Of a stretch of DNA of 64,000 nucleotides, positions 5,216-35,164 are shown piece by piece. The notes under the pieces were generated by a model. That model made no database searches, was not told the DNA's origin, and worked only from the letters and a program-made list of their open reading frames with translations. Origin of the DNA: Psococerastis gibbosa (lineage: Eukaryota > Arthropoda > Insecta > Psocodea > Psocidae); contig OZ020490.1 of NCBI GenBank assembly GCA_963971405.1, forward strand, positions 4,249,897-4,313,896. Reading direction: 5' to 3'. Position numbers and translations under genes: made by a program. How positions within the stretch are numbered: position 1 is the stretch's first letter; each line of letters begins with the position of its first letter.

Positions 5216-7644
<2,429 letters not shown>

Positions 7645-8037
7645 GTATTATTAATGTATAAGTATTTAGTTTATTTGCTGCTTTAGGCTAGAGCCTTTAA
7701 AGGTGCCGTACACTGCAAAAGTGTACTGTTTTTTTTTTATTAGATTTGAGCGGAGCAGGTCACAAGTTAGAGTATTTAGAAATTGTGTAAATTCTCGAAG
7801 ATTTGGGAGTCACTTCGTTAAAATCTTAGATTGAAGTACAGATGAATGTATGATCGACATTAGAGGATCTAGAAATATCTAGACTTGGGGGGGGGGGGGG
7901 GGATTCAAGCTAAAGATCAATGCTATGCCTTCAACATAAGTTAGTTTAATGTCAGTATTAAAATATACACCATAAAATGCTACCGTATAATGAATGTTTC
8001 ATGACCAAACACCAGATCCTCTCATCTATGTAGTTTG
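7645..8037. other. 3' flank of AHCYL
   Basis: AT-rich flank with a T run at about 7731-7738 and a long G tract at about 7887-7902. No canonical AATAAA close to the stop, no poly-A tract directly after the gene and no obvious target duplication around it, so a retrocopy origin is not proven from the flanks. Confidence 0.5.
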
Positions 8038-8345
8038 TAGACCACCTGCTTTACATGCCCTCCAAAGTATGGCCTAAAATGTAGCAAGTCTTCTTCTTCT
8101 TCTTCTCGTGCCCCTTCAACGTTGAAGATTGGCGATCATTTGAGCGATTTGCACCTTAGACACGGCTGCGCGGAAGAGGCCTGTCGTGCTCCTCCCGAAC
8201 CAACCCCTAAGGTTGGCCAGCCAGGACGTCCGTCTTCTACCTGCGGTTCTTCTCCCCTCAATGCGCCCATGTATGATGAGTTGGAGAAGGTGATAGTAGT
8301 GATGTAGCAAGTGTGGGACTCCAACCAACAATCTTTCGGGTGAAA
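8038..8345 (-). repeat. SINE1 (tRNA-derived), interrupted
   Basis: Minus-strand copy recognisable by its complement of GGAGGGCATGTAAAGCAGG and of the B-box region. It is split after ATGTAGCAAGT (8079-8089) by a LINE tail and resumes at 8302 with the same 11 bases. Confidence 0.75.
8090..8301 (-). mobile_element. 5'-truncated non-LTR retrotransposon tail inserted in SINE1
   Basis: On the minus strand it reads ...GRRTAGRRRTSWLANLRGWFG...VSKVQIAQMIANLQR and a stop, then an (AAG)n tail (8090-8106). The GRR-x-RRRxSWLxNLRxWFG...IAxMIANLR pattern is the C-terminus of a LINE ORF2. The flanking 11-bp ATGTAGCAAGT duplication proves target-primed insertion into the SINE. Confidence 0.85.
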
Positions 8346-9365: not shown

Positions 9366-11213
9366 TTATTGCATGTGATGTTTTTTGAAGCAGTCACGCT
9401 CAATACAAAGGGTGATGCGACAATACTCGCATTGCCAACGACATTTGGCATGACAGATGCGGCAGCGCTGTTGACTCAGGAGTTTTTTCGGCCAGTGTCC
9501 TAGAGCTGGCTGATCCCGAGGGTTTAGTGGCAGCGCTTCTCTTTTACCCTTTACTTTGTGGAATACAGCAGCATCCCTCAGGTAACTTCTGACTATGCTC
9601 CTCCGGAATCCTAATTCGTCCATATTCCCGTCAGCAATTTTGTGCAGCCGCCAAGCATTGTATACAGCAAGGTCTAGAAAATATGTGAAGATAACGAAGT
9701 ACCATCTTTTACTTCGCAGACCAACTCGGTAAGCGTTGACGCCTTGATCAACTAAGTCAACCCCACCCATGTGACTGTTATAAGTCTTGAACAGGCGGGG
9801 TTGGGGCACGCTCACTTTGGCCAACACCTTACGGTCCCACCTTTTCACCGCTCCTTTTGGCTCCACGGAATCAAAATTTGTAGCCATCGTCACTAAGCTA
9901 TTGTCCATCCAACGAACGGCTAGTATTCCATTTTTTTTGTCCAAGAAAGAAAAAGAAGTTCCTCTGGCTAACTTCTTCGGTTTCTTCTTTATCACGGCCG
10001 ATTTCTTTGGAAGTTTCGCTCCCTTTTTTATATCTTTTTTCTTTTTTTCGAGAGGCATCCGATCTTCCCGAACAGTGCCGGTACCTCGTATCCCCATTTC
10101 CCTCAAAGTTACGAGTAGAGGGTAGTTCGTAAAAAAATTATCGAATAAAACTACTCTTTGCTCAGGATGGGGTATTTTGGAAACAAAATCTAAAACCACT
10201 TGCGCTCCTAACCCCATATTCTTATCAGTAGCTGTGGTCCTCCCCTGGTATACATCGAAATCGTAACAATAGCCATTGGAGCTAGCAAGCATCCAATTTT
10301 TGTAGCCAAAGCGAATAGGCTTGTTGCGTATAAATTGCTTGCAGCTATGTTTACCGAAGTATTTTATCATTGATTCGTCAACTGAGAAGTAGTTGTCAAA
10401 ATAACCCCATTGCTGAAAGTTAGTTCTGAGGCGGTCTATGAATGGTCGAACTTTATACATCTTGTCTTTGGTATCCGAGGTTATAAGACTGTTGTCGGCT
10501 ATGTGAAAGTATTTCTTGATCTCAAGAAATCGGTCACGGCTCATAGCTTCATATACAATTTTCTGCCCCAAATCTTCATCGACAGACCAATAATATCTAG
10601 CACGAGGTAGGGTATGGTACCCTGAAAACAATAAAATTGCCATAAAAGTGCGGAGCTCAGTTGGAGTTAACAGAAAATTCTGATTGTTTTTTTGTCCCGC
10701 ATACAATTCACTTTGTTGGGCTAAATATTGTATATCACTTTCAGTGATCATAATCTCAAATATTTCCCGAGGAGACTTGCCACCAATAGAGTTGCGAACA
10801 TCGTCTATAGTGTGGCCATATTTAGCATGGTCTGATGGGGCGTCCAAGTCAAGATCTTTTCGCCATTTTGGAGGCACCTTACTCTTTTTGTAAATGTCCC
10901 TCACACTTTCTGAAACCACATTATTTTCAAGAGCTCCTGGGTCATCTTGATCGGTTTCTTTGGTAACGTCCGCTTCATAATGCCCAATATTAATTTCAAT
11001 AGTTCCTGGAACATCATTGGGCAAGTTATTGCATGTCATCAGATCTTCGTCGTCAAAATTTTCGTCATCGGTTAAAGGGTCGACATCAGGAGGTACAATA
11101 TTTATGTCGATTTCATTCTCAGAGAGGAATTCATCATCATCAAAAATCGCTTCAATCGCTTCCTCTAACCCTTTAAAATTGTTTCTACCACTAAAAACCA
11201 GTCGACGTGACAT
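9366..11213 (-). CDS. piggyBac transposase (DDD), apparently intact
   Basis: 615-residue protein from the ATG at 11213 (MSRRLVFSG). An in-frame ATG 19 codons earlier lies inside the inverted repeat and is less likely. It cuts and pastes the element at TTAA sites. The N-terminus (20-95) is acidic, as usual for the family. The catalytic core has the DDD positions: D279 in FSVDESM, D358 in LFDNFFTNYPL, and D486/D489 in HMGGVDLVDQ. A lysine-rich insertion (about 388-415) lies between the second and third aspartates. The C-terminus is a cysteine-rich zinc domain (CRIC at 584-587, CEYC at 595-598, then C603, C608, H612/H613). No frameshift or stop. The stop codon overlaps an AATAAA polyadenylation signal (9365-9370 on the complementary strand), so the transcript could end inside the element. 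By sequence alone it looks potentially autonomous. Confidence 0.95.
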   Translation of the reverse strand: MSRRLVFSGRNNFKGLEEAIEAIFDDDEFLSENEIDINIVPPDVDPLTDDENFDDEDLMTCNNLPNDVPGTIEINIGHYEADVTKETDQDDPGALENNVVSESVRDIYKKSKVPPKWRKDLDLDAPSDHAKYGHTIDDVRNSIGGKSPREIFEIMITESDIQYLAQQSELYAGQKNNQNFLLTPTELRTFMAILLFSGYHTLPRARYYWSVDEDLGQKIVYEAMSRDRFLEIKKYFHIADNSLITSDTKDKMYKVRPFIDRLRTNFQQWGYFDNYFSVDESMIKYFGKHSCKQFIRNKPIRFGYKNWMLASSNGYCYDFDVYQGRTTATDKNMGLGAQVVLDFVSKIPHPEQRVVLFDNFFTNYPLLVTLREMGIRGTGTVREDRMPLEKKKKDIKKGAKLPKKSAVIKKKPKKLARGTSFSFLDKKNGILAVRWMDNSLVTMATNFDSVEPKGAVKRWDRKVLAKVSVPQPRLFKTYNSHMGGVDLVDQGVNAYRVGLRSKRWYFVIFTYFLDLAVYNAWRLHKIADGNMDELGFRRSIVRSYLRDAAVFHKVKGKREALPLNPRDQPALGHWPKKLLSQQRCRICHAKCRWQCEYCRITLCIERDCFKKHHMQ

Positions 11214-11267
11214 TTTTATATCTGTAATAAAATAAAAACAATAAACATAAGATGAAACGTGTGATAT

Positions 11268-11287
11268 CATATAGACCTAATGTCCCC
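11268..11287 (-). repeat. piggyBac subterminal inverted repeat, right
   Basis: Exact complement of the left copy. It contains an upstream in-frame ATG (11270), so the transcription start probably falls between here and the chosen start, or just outside. Confidence 0.9.
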
Positions 11288-27579: not shown

Positions 27580-28303
27580 TTTAAGGCGGTTCCCACCATC
27601 GCTTGAAAAGTTTCGGTAAGGAATACTGCACGGCAATGGAGGTCTATACACGAGAGATGCAGCATTTCAGCGCGCCAAAAATATTTTTTTTAAAATATTG
27701 ACTTTTTTCTATTACTAAGACAACCTAGCGGTGTTAGGACTATAAAGCCTTCTCTTGCACTCAACTAGGAAGGCACGTGACAGCCTGCTTTACATGCCCT
27801 CCGAAGCGTGGCCAGAAAATGTAGTAAGTGTGGGACTCAAACGAACAACCTTTCGGGTGAAAGTTGGAGTCTGTACCACCACTCTACATGTCTTGAATTT
27901 TTTTTAAGTAAGGTACCTACAGGATGGAACACCAGGTCTGTGGTCGAAATCTCTCTAGTCAGACACTATCAGAACCTCAAAGCAGCATTTAACAAAGGGT
28001 TGGTTAGACTTACATTGCCTGCTGTGTTTATAGTCATTAAAGGCATGGGCCTCGTAGTCATCGAACAAATAGGGCGGAGCCTACATCCATTCCTCGATAC
28101 ATTTAAAGAATGGGCCCATGTTACGCCATTTCATATTGATTCCTCCATATGGATGGAATTTTCAAAAAATATCTTTGGCACGAAAATATGTCCCATCTCT
28201 CATTATATAGAACTCCACACAACACCACCATGCATTTCAGGATGACGGTGCCGTTTAGTGTTTATTAAGAACACTTGTCAAGCGACGGTGGGACCGAGCC
28301 TTA
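27580..28303. mobile_element. foldback element with nested SINE1
   Basis: Outer ends TTAAGGCGGTTCCCACCATCGCTTG and (complement) TTAAGGCTCGGTCCCACCGTCGCTTG. Inner arms AGGTCTATACACGAGAGATG and complement (near 28190-28215). It carries a SINE1 at 27695-27893 and, at 27960-28075, the repeat that is the target of the Penelope-like insertion elsewhere. A 145-codon open frame here has no family features. Confidence 0.7.
27695..27893 (-). repeat. SINE1
   Basis: Minus-strand copy with intact complement of the body and of the B box (27825-27850). Confidence 0.85.
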
Positions 28304-31632: not shown

Positions 31633-32829
31633 CTGAAAGTCTTCTACAACTTGATCCTTAAAAAATTAAATAAAAAATTAACAATGCCAGATTTTCTACG
31701 GTCCATATCCACTTAAGTGGAATCTTTCCAAATTTCCAAAACATGGCGTGAGAGGTAATTAATTCAATTCTCGTTTCACAGTGGCAAAATCCCTCTTCCA
31801 GCACCTCCCAAAATATATAAATTTGATAATACACAATACCTTTGTTTATATAAACTATTCATTAATCTATAAAATAAAATAATCTATTAATCAAAACCAC
31901 ATACCCTGACAAATTTAATTGGGGACAAACATCAGCCGGCCATAGCAACATTAAACTTTCTCATCAAGACTGGAGTCATGAATACCTATAGACAAATACA
32001 AGTAGTTGTAGTAGTTCGTCGGGTTAATAACGACTTAGGCCTCATTTGGGCCCATAGAGCGACCCCGACTGGACTGTCCTATGCCAGCCCATAGGACAGT
32101 GGACCTCCTGATTATAGTGGATTCCGAACCACTTGGGAAACAAAGTCAAGTCACACGATTAGTTCGGAGGTGACCAGGACAAGTCCTACCATGTTCCCTA
32201 CCGGCACTGTTCAGCTTTGAACCTGCTCTGGTCCGCTGGATTCAACTTGTTAACGCGGCCGGTTAGACAAATACCAGAGAACCGTTCCAAATGGAAACAA
32301 CCAACAATAACCAAATAAGTTAACAACTCCGCACAAGCACACCGACCGGCGCAAATACTCGGGAGTCCCGCGCCAAAAATTAAAAAAAAAATAATAATAA
32401 TAATCTAAAAGAAAGACGCAGACGACTCTTTCCCAAAATAGGACTTTAACGATTTTCATAGATTAACTTTAGTTCACAAAACGAAATCTATTGTTTATTA
32501 TTTTGTTTTGTTATTTTATATTGTGTATGCGTATTTTAGGAGGTGTTCAAAGAGATCGGTCAATATAAGTGCTCTGGATTGAGAAATTCATGAATTAGCT
32601 CTCAACCTATGATGTGGTTAAAAATGTAGAAAGACTACACTTCAAACTTGACGTTTATAAATCAAAAATCTCCAAGTCGACATCAACCACTGATAAAACT
32701 CAAAATACTGTGCAGTCTCTAGGACCATTTATTGAGCGTGATTTATTTTATTACAAAGATACAATTAATAGACCATACTCACTATCCGCAATTGGAGTTC
32801 TTCTCTATTGGTAAAGGTTTATGGCAATG
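31633..32829. other. unassigned sequence with a family E fragment
   Basis: 32075-32290 is a minus-strand piece of dispersed repeat E. Nothing else recognised; no exon candidates. Confidence 0.45.
32075..32290 (-). repeat. dispersed repeat E fragment
   Basis: GACCTCCTGATTATAGTGGATTCCGAACCACTTGGG plus TCGGAGGTGACCAGGAC, as in fuller copies at 37.2, 41.8, 45.5 and 59.6 kb. Confidence 0.75.
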
Positions 32830-32912
32830 GCGTAATATTATTTAACAAAGGATTAGTTGGACTCACATTGCCTGTTGTGTCAATACTCATTAGAGGCAAA
32901 TGCCTCAGTCAT

Positions 32913-33520
32913 AAACAAAAAATAACAAAAACTTAGAGTTTTAGAAAAACTTGTTATAACAACCCGAATTAGTAAAACCCAAATAATCGTTAAGAAATTA
33001 ACTTTGTCTAAGAAACCCACTTGTGTTAGTATAAAACCCTGAGCGCTTTCGGCAAGAACTGCCATCTACAGAGGGAAACCCACTAGCACAGTTACACCTT
33101 ATCTGCGATTTGAGACTTGCTCAACTCGAGGAGAAGATGCAAATGTGACTAGGGAGAGGAAACCTTGGTTTATATAGGACTGGGAGCGGGGGTGGGAGGG
33201 GGCGTGGCTGGTTACCTATTCCTAACCTACTAGCTAGATCTATTAGAGGGGATGATTGTGTGAATGTTATGTCGTTTGTTAATTTTTCCCTATTGTGTAA
33301 AGCTCTTTTGATTTCAACATTTTCAAAAAAATTTAAAGTGTAACTTTTCTTTATTTTGTGTAGGGCTGTCCAATTGTGAGGATCGAATGTGTGGTTTTCC
33401 GAGTTAAGGTGTTTCGCGAAAGTGCTGTTGGTGTTGGTGTCTCCTATACCTGTTATATGTTCTCTGACCCTAGTTTTAAAGCTTCTGCCTGTTTGGCCTA
33501 TGTAAATTGCGTTACAATCG
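32913..33520 (-). repeat. left inverted arm of the Penelope-like element
   Basis: Complement of 33979 to about 34580, including the GIY-YIG-coding part. The right arm lacks about 18 bp present here (AAACCCAAATAATC region). Identity is otherwise very high, implying a single event. Confidence 0.9.
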
Positions 33521-34339
33521 ATATTTCGTAAAGAAACCCATAGCGATAATATAATCCCTGTTGATTCTTCTCACCCATTCCAGCACAAACACGCAGCATT
33601 CCATAGTATGACTTTTCGACTCCTTAACATCCCTATGAATCAAACCAACTATAATAATGAATTAAATACAATAAAACAAATTGCCCAAAATAACAATTTC
33701 AATCTCAACCTAATAGACAGAATCCTACGACATCACAAAATCAAACACAACCTCAAACTAATTTACCCCCCAGGGAGCTTAAACCCGGTAACCAATAAAT
33801 CATATTTCAGGATACAATACATAGAAAAAATCACAGAAAAAATTAGTAACCTCATTTCTTCTACAACAGACAAAACACCAGCCCCGTACAATCGCAACAA
33901 TTTGGCCAATAAACTCATGAACTGCAAAACCAAACCAGAAAAAGAAAAAGGCAATGGAGTTTACCGTCTAAATTGTAACGATTGTAACGCAATTTACATA
34001 GGCCAAACAGGCAGAAGCTTTAAAACTAGGGTCAGAGAACATATAACAGGTATAGGAGACACCAACACCAACAGCACTTTCGCGAAACACCTTAACTCGG
34101 AAAACCACACATTCGATCCTCACAATTGGACAGCCCTACACAAAATAAAGAAAAGTTACACTTTAAATTTTTTTGAAAATGTTGAAATCAAAAGAGCTTT
34201 ACACAATAGGGAAAAATTAACAAACGACATAACATTCACACAATCATCCCCTCTAATAGATCTAGCTAGTAGGTTAGGAATAGGTAACCAGCCACGCCCC
34301 CTCCCACCCCCTCCTCCCCCCGCTCCCAGTCCTATATAA
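33521..34339 (+). pseudogene. Penelope-like element ORF, 3' part (thumb remnant + GIY-YIG endonuclease)
   Basis: Open frame of 272 codons running in from the junction at 33521: IFRKETHSDNIIPVDSSHPF, then QHKHAAFHSM, the end of the PLE reverse-transcriptase core and start of the linker. The C-terminal GIY-YIG nuclease follows: GVYRLNCNDC...AIYIGQTGRSFKTRVREHI, with its GxY and YIG signature and the catalytic arginine in SFKTRVREH. It ends in a proline-rich tail. The frame is intact within this segment, but the catalytic YADD part of the RT lies upstream of the truncation, so this copy cannot retrotranspose alone. Confidence 0.88.
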
Positions 34340-34690
34340 ACCAAGGTTTCCTCTCCCTAGTCACATTTGCATCTTCTCCTCGAGTTGAGCAAGTCTCAAA
34401 TCGCAGATAAGGTGTAACTGTGCTAGTGGGTTTCCCTCTGTAGATGGCAGTTCTTGCCGAAAGCGCTCAGGGTTTTATACTAACACAAGTGGGTTTCTTA
34501 GACAAAGTTAATTTCTTAACGATTCGGGTTGTTATAACAAGTTTTTCTAAAACTCTAAGTTTTTGTTATTTTTTGTTTATTAAAATGAAATACCACGAAG
34601 TCACGAGTAATCTAATTATTTATGCCTCAGTCATCGAACAATGTCAGTGGAGTATACGAGTAGCCCCCTTCCCTTGACAATCGGCTCTTC

Positions 34691-35164
34691 CCTAATTCTT
34701 CGATGACTGTGAGGCCCCTGGCTCTAATTACTATTAACCATGTACTGTAATGTAAGCTCAGCTAACTTGTTAAATTGAGTTCTACTGTATTTAATTCAGA
34801 TAAACAAAATTCCCATTGTATATTTTATAATTTTCATTCCCACCCCTATAATTTCCCAAAGGATAGTGAGCATGCCCATGTGATGTTAGTGTGTTTTAAT
34901 ATTAGGTACTGTACAATAATTTATTACAATGATAGTATACTGAGACAACGGCACTTTATATATTCTCGAAACAGTATATACTTTCCATTAATCCGTCGTT
35001 AATATACTGTACCCGAAATTGCAATAGGTACCAGTTATTTAGGGGATGTACCTACTACCTGATTTTTTTTTACAAAATCAAATTTCACAGGAAACAATAC
35101 AGTCATACAAGTGTATACTAAAATAACTTGGTTTTAGTCAGTTTCGAAGAAGCGGCAAAAATGC
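34691..35164. other. unassigned sequence
   Basis: No gene or repeat recognised. Confidence 0.4.

Follow-up and report, generated by a model that had tools for sequence, protein, structure and literature searches.

Inverted pairs of a Penelope-like element in Psococerastis gibbosa carry one tailed and one tailless end

Introduction

A family of Penelope-like elements (PLEs) in the genome of Psococerastis gibbosa occurs, at the majority of the loci that we have parsed, as inverted head-to-head pairs of copies, and in all 27 clear pairs whose outer ends are both standard (27/27) these ends are mixed: one arm carries a tail of about 42 nt at its 3' end (here called end T) and the other arm lacks it (end N). 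The two arms of a pair come from the same source copy, or from copies alike, though not necessarily from the same RNA molecule. We consider it probable that such pairs arise in one insertion, in which both target strands are cut and extended from RNA of one source copy and the resulting cDNAs are joined end to end.

PLEs are relatives of telomerase, and a tail of 30–40 bp at one end is an optional trait of the group. Two routes have been proposed for their integration, as set out in the excerpts of the papers used here: PMC3846280 favours self-priming, whereas PMC11167929 describes target-primed synthesis on both strands. According to the second, the purified protein of Poseidon from Anolis carolinensis (PAc) cleaves and extends both strands, and reverse transcription starts from two neighbouring internal sites, which mark the limits of the tail; in vitro, no difference in start site was seen between the strands, nor any homology of the start site to the cut DNA (PMC11167929). 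In the Penelope elements of Adineta vaga (Pen2a_Av and others), as described in the excerpt used here, an inverted pLTR completes the insert, target duplications measure 8–10 bp, a 31-bp tail is optionally present on one inverted pLTR, and partial tandems occur (PMC3846280).

Results

The stretch of DNA analysed (the window) comprises 64,000 nucleotides of contig OZ020490.1, and its positions 32913-34621 are an inverted head-to-head pair of 5'-truncated PLE copies lying within a perfect 13-bp duplication (Table 1). The original prediction, made from the letters alone, had recognised here a Penelope-like element, a 13-bp duplication on both sides and an inner junction at 33520/33521, and all three are borne out: the window frame encodes a GIY-YIG domain and a relative at locus L012 has both reverse transcriptase (RT) and GIY-YIG; the two copies of the duplication match perfectly; and the junction is correctly placed because the arms meet at 33520 with an overlap of 1 bp, the left arm fitting up to this base and the right arm from it. 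Some letters of the duplication, one at the left edge and three at the right, can also be read as element. The same prediction had the left arm as the complement of the right 3' portion. The inverted match is real, and was found independently in three segments (33188-33523/33976-34311, 32985-33202/34307-34524 and 32911-32969/34522-34580), but the left arm stops short of the final 42 bases present in the right one; this difference between the outer ends, which had been overlooked, is an important detail. Compared site by site, the window arms differ by one substitution, which lies at the alignment edge by the junction and is an extension artefact, and by two indels, 10 bp absent from a C-rich tract of the left arm and 18 bp absent from the right arm, which speak against the origin that we prefer below.

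Table 1. Features of the insertion and of a target relative within the window.
Feature	Positions	Strand	Basis or remark
Target-site duplication (TSD), left copy, ATGCCTCAGTCAT	32900..32912	.	direct reading and computed TSD, 13 bp
Target-site duplication, right copy	34622..34634	.	direct reading and computed TSD
Left arm, 5'-truncated PLE copy, 608 bp	32913..33520	-	tailless; 3' end at left flank, at site N (unit ~2872)
Right arm, 5'-truncated PLE copy, 1101 bp	33521..34621	+	unit ~1796 to 39 of next unit, ends at site T at right flank
Tail, 42 nt, right arm only	34580..34621	+	between sites N and T
Head-to-head inner junction	33520..33521	.	1-bp overlap (G at 33520)
PLE C-terminal frame, 272 aa plus 5 codons from left arm	33506..34339	+	tblastn 99.6% to L012 aa 652-923
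Left-arm remnant of the same C-terminal frame, shorter	33121..33570	-	PF01541 E=0.0024, below cut-off
Hammerhead-like motif (putative) around start codon, right arm	34434..34472	+	
Hammerhead-like motif (putative), left arm	33037..33075	-	
Diverged uninterrupted target-repeat relative	27987..28068	+	83%; passes insertion point by 7 bases

The window copy holds the C-terminal PLE part with GIY-YIG only. The forward frame had been predicted to be single and to carry this domain; the domain is there, at about 33953-34111 (PF01541, E=3.3e-5, above the cut-off), but the frame is not single, a minus-strand frame of the left arm holding the same C-terminal part. A complete unit is found at L012, where the tandem period is 2876 bp and an uninterrupted 923-aa frame (5458-8226) carries RVT_1 (E=2.1e-13, aa 429-617) followed by GIY-YIG (E=4.9e-5, aa 796-845). 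Judged from these predicted domains, the element is of the EN+ Penelope/Poseidon type, with RT and GIY-YIG in one frame in that order. The frame starts in the pLTR and continues through the tail. At L009, L010, L012 and L015 full-length units are preceded by a tailed partial copy, in tandem or partly tandem arrangements with pseudo-LTRs, and the arms at these four loci are longer than one unit, so that a template can hold more than one unit.

The family is young and was presumably active recently. Querying the genome with the full window insertion returned at least 40 matches (the best 40 of 1200 candidates), the non-self ones being 96–98% identical over the right arm, and a query with the pLTR and tail of L012 gave 99–100% identity in the best 40 of 608 candidates. 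Near-identical copies in this genome number in the dozens and may reach hundreds. At the start codon lies a hammerhead-like motif, picked by eye, with a putative cut 25 nt after the ATG and identical in 53 of 56 occurrences. The hammerhead core has the consensus CUGANGA; the core seen here, CUGUAGA, is one position off, and its layout and place are right for a pLTR ribozyme. Searches with the Rfam models found no hammerhead on the stretch of the insertion, on L012 2000-9000 or on the whole window, and we keep the motif as putative only. No special fold was seen around the start sites either, a 401-nt stretch giving a z of 0.65, with 75 of 100 shuffles folding at least as well.

Other coding traces were noticed beside those of the family. 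Locus L019 contains, at 297-551, traces of a PLE-like GIY-YIG frame that has diverged to 34% identity, a candidate for a second PLE family in the same genome, and near it, at 738-861, a near-perfect palindrome of two 62-nt arms (95%) with no spacer. In the window itself, an uninterrupted 548-aa frame at 5998-7644 (plus strand) matches S-adenosylhomocysteine hydrolase (PF05221, PF00670) and has an N-terminal extension that makes it look AHCYL-like to us; as it is free of introns here, it is perhaps a retrocopy or an intron-poor gene. A second uninterrupted frame, of 636 aa at 9366-11276 (minus strand), matches DDE_Tnp_1_7 (E=1.2e-74), which we take to be a piggyBac-type transposase.

Relatives of the target repeat are numerous in the genome: in the best 40 of 1764 candidates, the 39 non-self rows are 86–92% identical. 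Six of these relatives (L043-L048) were taken from the 17 non-self rows, among the matches listed, that reach the insertion edge; all six continue across the insertion point for 8 to 69 bases and hold a single counterpart, not always identical, of the duplicated stretch. An uninterrupted relative had been predicted near 28010-28066 within the window; uninterrupted it is, but with its identity of 83% and its 7 bases past the insertion point it is a diverged paralogue and not an empty allele. The prediction that one insertion produced two head-to-head 3' ends is supported by the one enclosing duplication together with the uninterrupted target relatives. The target (32801-32912, 34635-34775; 27987-28081) is a repeat of high copy number, and its right part can be aligned with its left part in inverted orientation, a self-alignment seen in all seven target relatives compared, with six secondary inverted matches among the genome matches listed; from its letters it looks like a foldback or MITE-like repeat.

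Neither these matching duplications nor the uninterrupted relatives would come from misassembly, and the window contains no N. We accordingly give hardly any credence to an assembly artefact as the origin of the inverted structure, although exactly 200 N stand within 4 of the 27 inverted pairs (L014, L015, L027 and L036), as if the assembly broke at inverted PLE pairs or a stretch was withheld, and such inverted sequence seems hard to assemble.

The inner junction of the window pair did not recur among the matches listed. A 100-bp probe across it (33471-33570) matches whole at this place only, the other 39 listed places matching one half (best 40 of 935 candidates), which is what the original prediction expected of an event at this site. 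The inverted layout, real in the window, is no peculiarity of the site, because it is common in the family with a different inner junction each time: 30 of the 42 parsed loci are inverted pairs (31 counting L031), the majority form, each with other inner breakpoints and arm lengths. That prevalence is what one would see if the inverted structure were itself the mobile unit, a fixed foldback element copied whole; however, a junction found whole only in the window, among the best 40 of 935 candidates, and arm lengths and inner breakpoints that vary among the parsed pairs make this scarcely tenable. Among 24 inner junctions, the 22 resolved comprise seven with overlaps of 1–2 bp, one blunt join and 14 with filler, two of the last being assembly gaps, and the inner ends of paired arms lie at unequal unit positions.

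Two observations concern short arms. The short tailed arms of L025, L026, L041 and L051 (n=4) all stop within unit 2782-2807, perhaps at a strong reverse-transcriptase stop. The tailed arm of L034 (2036-2074) comprises just the 39 bp of the tail and breaks off at site N; two enzymes may have met here on a single RNA.

The outer ends were classed by script at the 42 parsed loci. Of these, 35 (L001 and L009-L042; sample 1, with 24 clear pairs) cover every place with a right-arm match in the best 40 of 1200 candidates, the window included, so that only best-scoring candidates were sampled; four (L049-L052) were taken in list order from the matches of the junction probe, and three (L053-L055) were picked because the listings showed an inverted neighbour. 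The script returned 28 N/T loci, six single tailed and four single tailless ones, three with one non-standard end (unit 2836 in L023, 2641 in L051 and 2680 in L052, one end in each of three pairs) and one incomplete locus (L049). L031, which the script classed as T/N and counts among the 28, was set aside: its 56-bp tailed piece lies 1.46 kb away and has no duplication. No N/N or T/T pair was found among the 42 loci. The mixed arrangement holds for 23 of 23 gap-free pairs, for 24 of 24 pairs of sample 1 and for 20 of 20 of its gap-free pairs; were the ends independent, its chance would be at most 0.5^27 = 7e-9, or 1e-7 for the 23 gap-free pairs. In sample 1, with positions fitted by a 12-base anchor, N ends fall at unit 2869-2875 in 18 of the 24 pairs, and in 13 of the 24 the T ends fall at 35-42. 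Such anchors were used because three N-end fits at -15 proved to be misplacements in a T-rich tract or, in L019, a poor fit.

An exact duplication of 8–16 bp, most commonly of 12 and 11 bp, encloses both arms in 21 of the 24 sample-1 pairs, and outside this sample duplications of 11 bp (L053) and 12 bp (L055) were seen; no convincing one was found at L012, L040, L042, L054, L031 or L051. Ten of the 42 loci are one-armed, and a second arm is thus not obligatory. L050, a single tailless arm with a 9-bp duplication, shows that one-armed insertions with duplication also occur; L017 is a single tailed arm with 11 bp. We make no claim on how the lengths of N and T arms relate, the loci having been chosen for at least one long arm. 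A side-specific target motif was likewise set aside: with the tail turned to the right, C precedes the duplication in 12 of 21 pairs and G follows it in 7 of 21, too few to carry it.

The arms of one pair differ at only 9 of 304 comparable cells (50 SNP sites in the 24 sample-1 pairs, gapped ones included), whereas shuffling the partners gave a mean mismatch of 17.5%, and none of 5000 shuffles was as low. Without the diverged pairs L038, L040 and L041 the figures are 5 of 279 against 7.6% when shuffled, again with 0 of 5000 as low. In the window, both arms have the variant T at unit 2354, which occurs in 4 of 47 arms in all, these two included. Tandem and clustered copies do exist (L012, L010, L015) and could lend themselves to the joining of arms by two separate insertions or by later inversion or recombination between copies. 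Against this, (i) one duplication surrounds both arms in 21 of the 24 sample-1 pairs, (ii) the arms of a pair have their source in common, and (iii) independent events should also yield N/N and T/T pairs, and we regard an origin in two events as very improbable.

Self-priming, in which one cDNA or antisense transcript folds back and copies itself into an inverted pair, has been put forward for Penelope elements of rotifers on the evidence of palindromes where the inverted copies join, in the excerpt of the source used here (PMC3846280). The window taken alone would allow it, the shorter left arm lying within the range of the right arm. In L033, L034, L035 and L041, however, each arm has sequence that the other lacks, the tail in one and a longer 5' part in the other, and for this reason neither arm can have been copied from its partner. 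In addition, both outer ends stand at narrow start sites at the edges of the duplication, and the inner ends meet at unequal unit positions through overlaps, blunt joins or filler. We therefore judge self-priming to be an improbable source of these pairs.

The target DNA at the priming ends matches the RNA for longer than expected: 1.5 nt at T against 0.53 nt when shuffled (0 of 5000 as high; 21 pairs) and 1.0 nt at N against 0.43 nt (1 of 5000 as high; 21 pairs), a statistic possibly slightly inflated, since length and closeness to where the alignment ended decided which boundary of the duplication was used. These longer matches are a modest sign of base-paired priming.

Discussion

The one-tail/no-tail pairing, the shared source of the arms and the arms that are not nested in one another favour coordinated synthesis on both strands, and the single insertion that we prefer could proceed as follows: (i) the endonuclease of the element would cut both target strands, most often about 11–13 nt apart, leaving 3' overhangs, which would give rise to the target duplication; (ii) the 3' end of each target strand, that of the top strand at the duplication's right edge and that of the bottom strand at its left edge, would prime reverse transcription on sense RNA, with a single source copy supplying the RNA for both; (iii) one strand would start at the inner site N, leaving no tail, and the other about 43 nt further downstream at T, giving the tail; and (iv) both cDNAs would stop early and then join head to head by end joining, in the window through an overlap of 1 bp. 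A staggered cut with 3' overhangs is suggested because both outer ends are element 3' ends at the edges of the duplication, and the two starts are apparently allotted one per strand, since the pairs examined use one N and one T. Such a course agrees with the published activities of purified PLE protein, which cuts and extends both strands and uses two internal starts next to each other (PMC11167929). That N and T would be start sites of reverse transcription is read by comparison with PAc; the order of cutting and priming, the geometry of the overhangs, a dimeric complex and the pathway of end joining are likewise what we infer.

Inverted parts within one target duplication are also known from L1 twin priming, where two primers act at one target. 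There, however, the segment that is turned round comes from further upstream in one RNA, and neither segment duplicates the other, whereas here both arms contain the 3' end and, in the window, the 3' part of the right arm is present again in the left arm.

The likeness to PAc is closer: as far as the excerpt of that paper describes it, both elements combine RT and C-terminal GIY-YIG in one frame, form tandem units with a pLTR, and have an optional tail that lies within the frame between two start sites of reverse transcription (PMC11167929). The PAc hammerhead cuts 26 nt after the start codon (PMC11167929); for the hammerhead-like motif here the putative cut lies 25 nt after the ATG. Unlike PAc in vitro, on the same partial account, the 27 clear pairs use one start of each kind and show longer matches at the priming ends (PMC11167929). 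The in-vitro assay saw no difference between strands in the start, and the pairing must therefore stem from something that it missed. With Pen2a of A. vaga, as given in the excerpt of that source, the element has in common a frame that opens in the pLTR and extends across the tail; the A. vaga elements, in contrast, are low in copy number and have palindromes at their junctions, whereas the arms here meet at unequal unit positions (PMC3846280). The layout and the optional tail were thus already published, and the strict N/T pairing and the shared source of the arms are what we add. In the excerpts of PMC11167929, PMC3846280, PMC6431247, PMC3136932 and PMC12910113 used here we found neither a count of tails per inverted pair nor a statement that exactly one arm carries the tail; an earlier description in older Penelope papers is possible.

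As a more tentative proposal, to which we give slightly less than even odds, the division of labour may be obligatory: one complex would make the staggered cut and, if both strands are extended, their synthesis would start at two fixed sites about 43 nt apart on RNA of the same source. If this is true, the tail would be the signature of the other strand's start and not an optional extra, and the tail-only arm of L034 would show where one enzyme ran up against the start used by the other on the same RNA molecule. A young family of near-identical copies is a record of many single insertion events, and the N/T pairing read from it gives a simple prediction for the existing biochemical assay.
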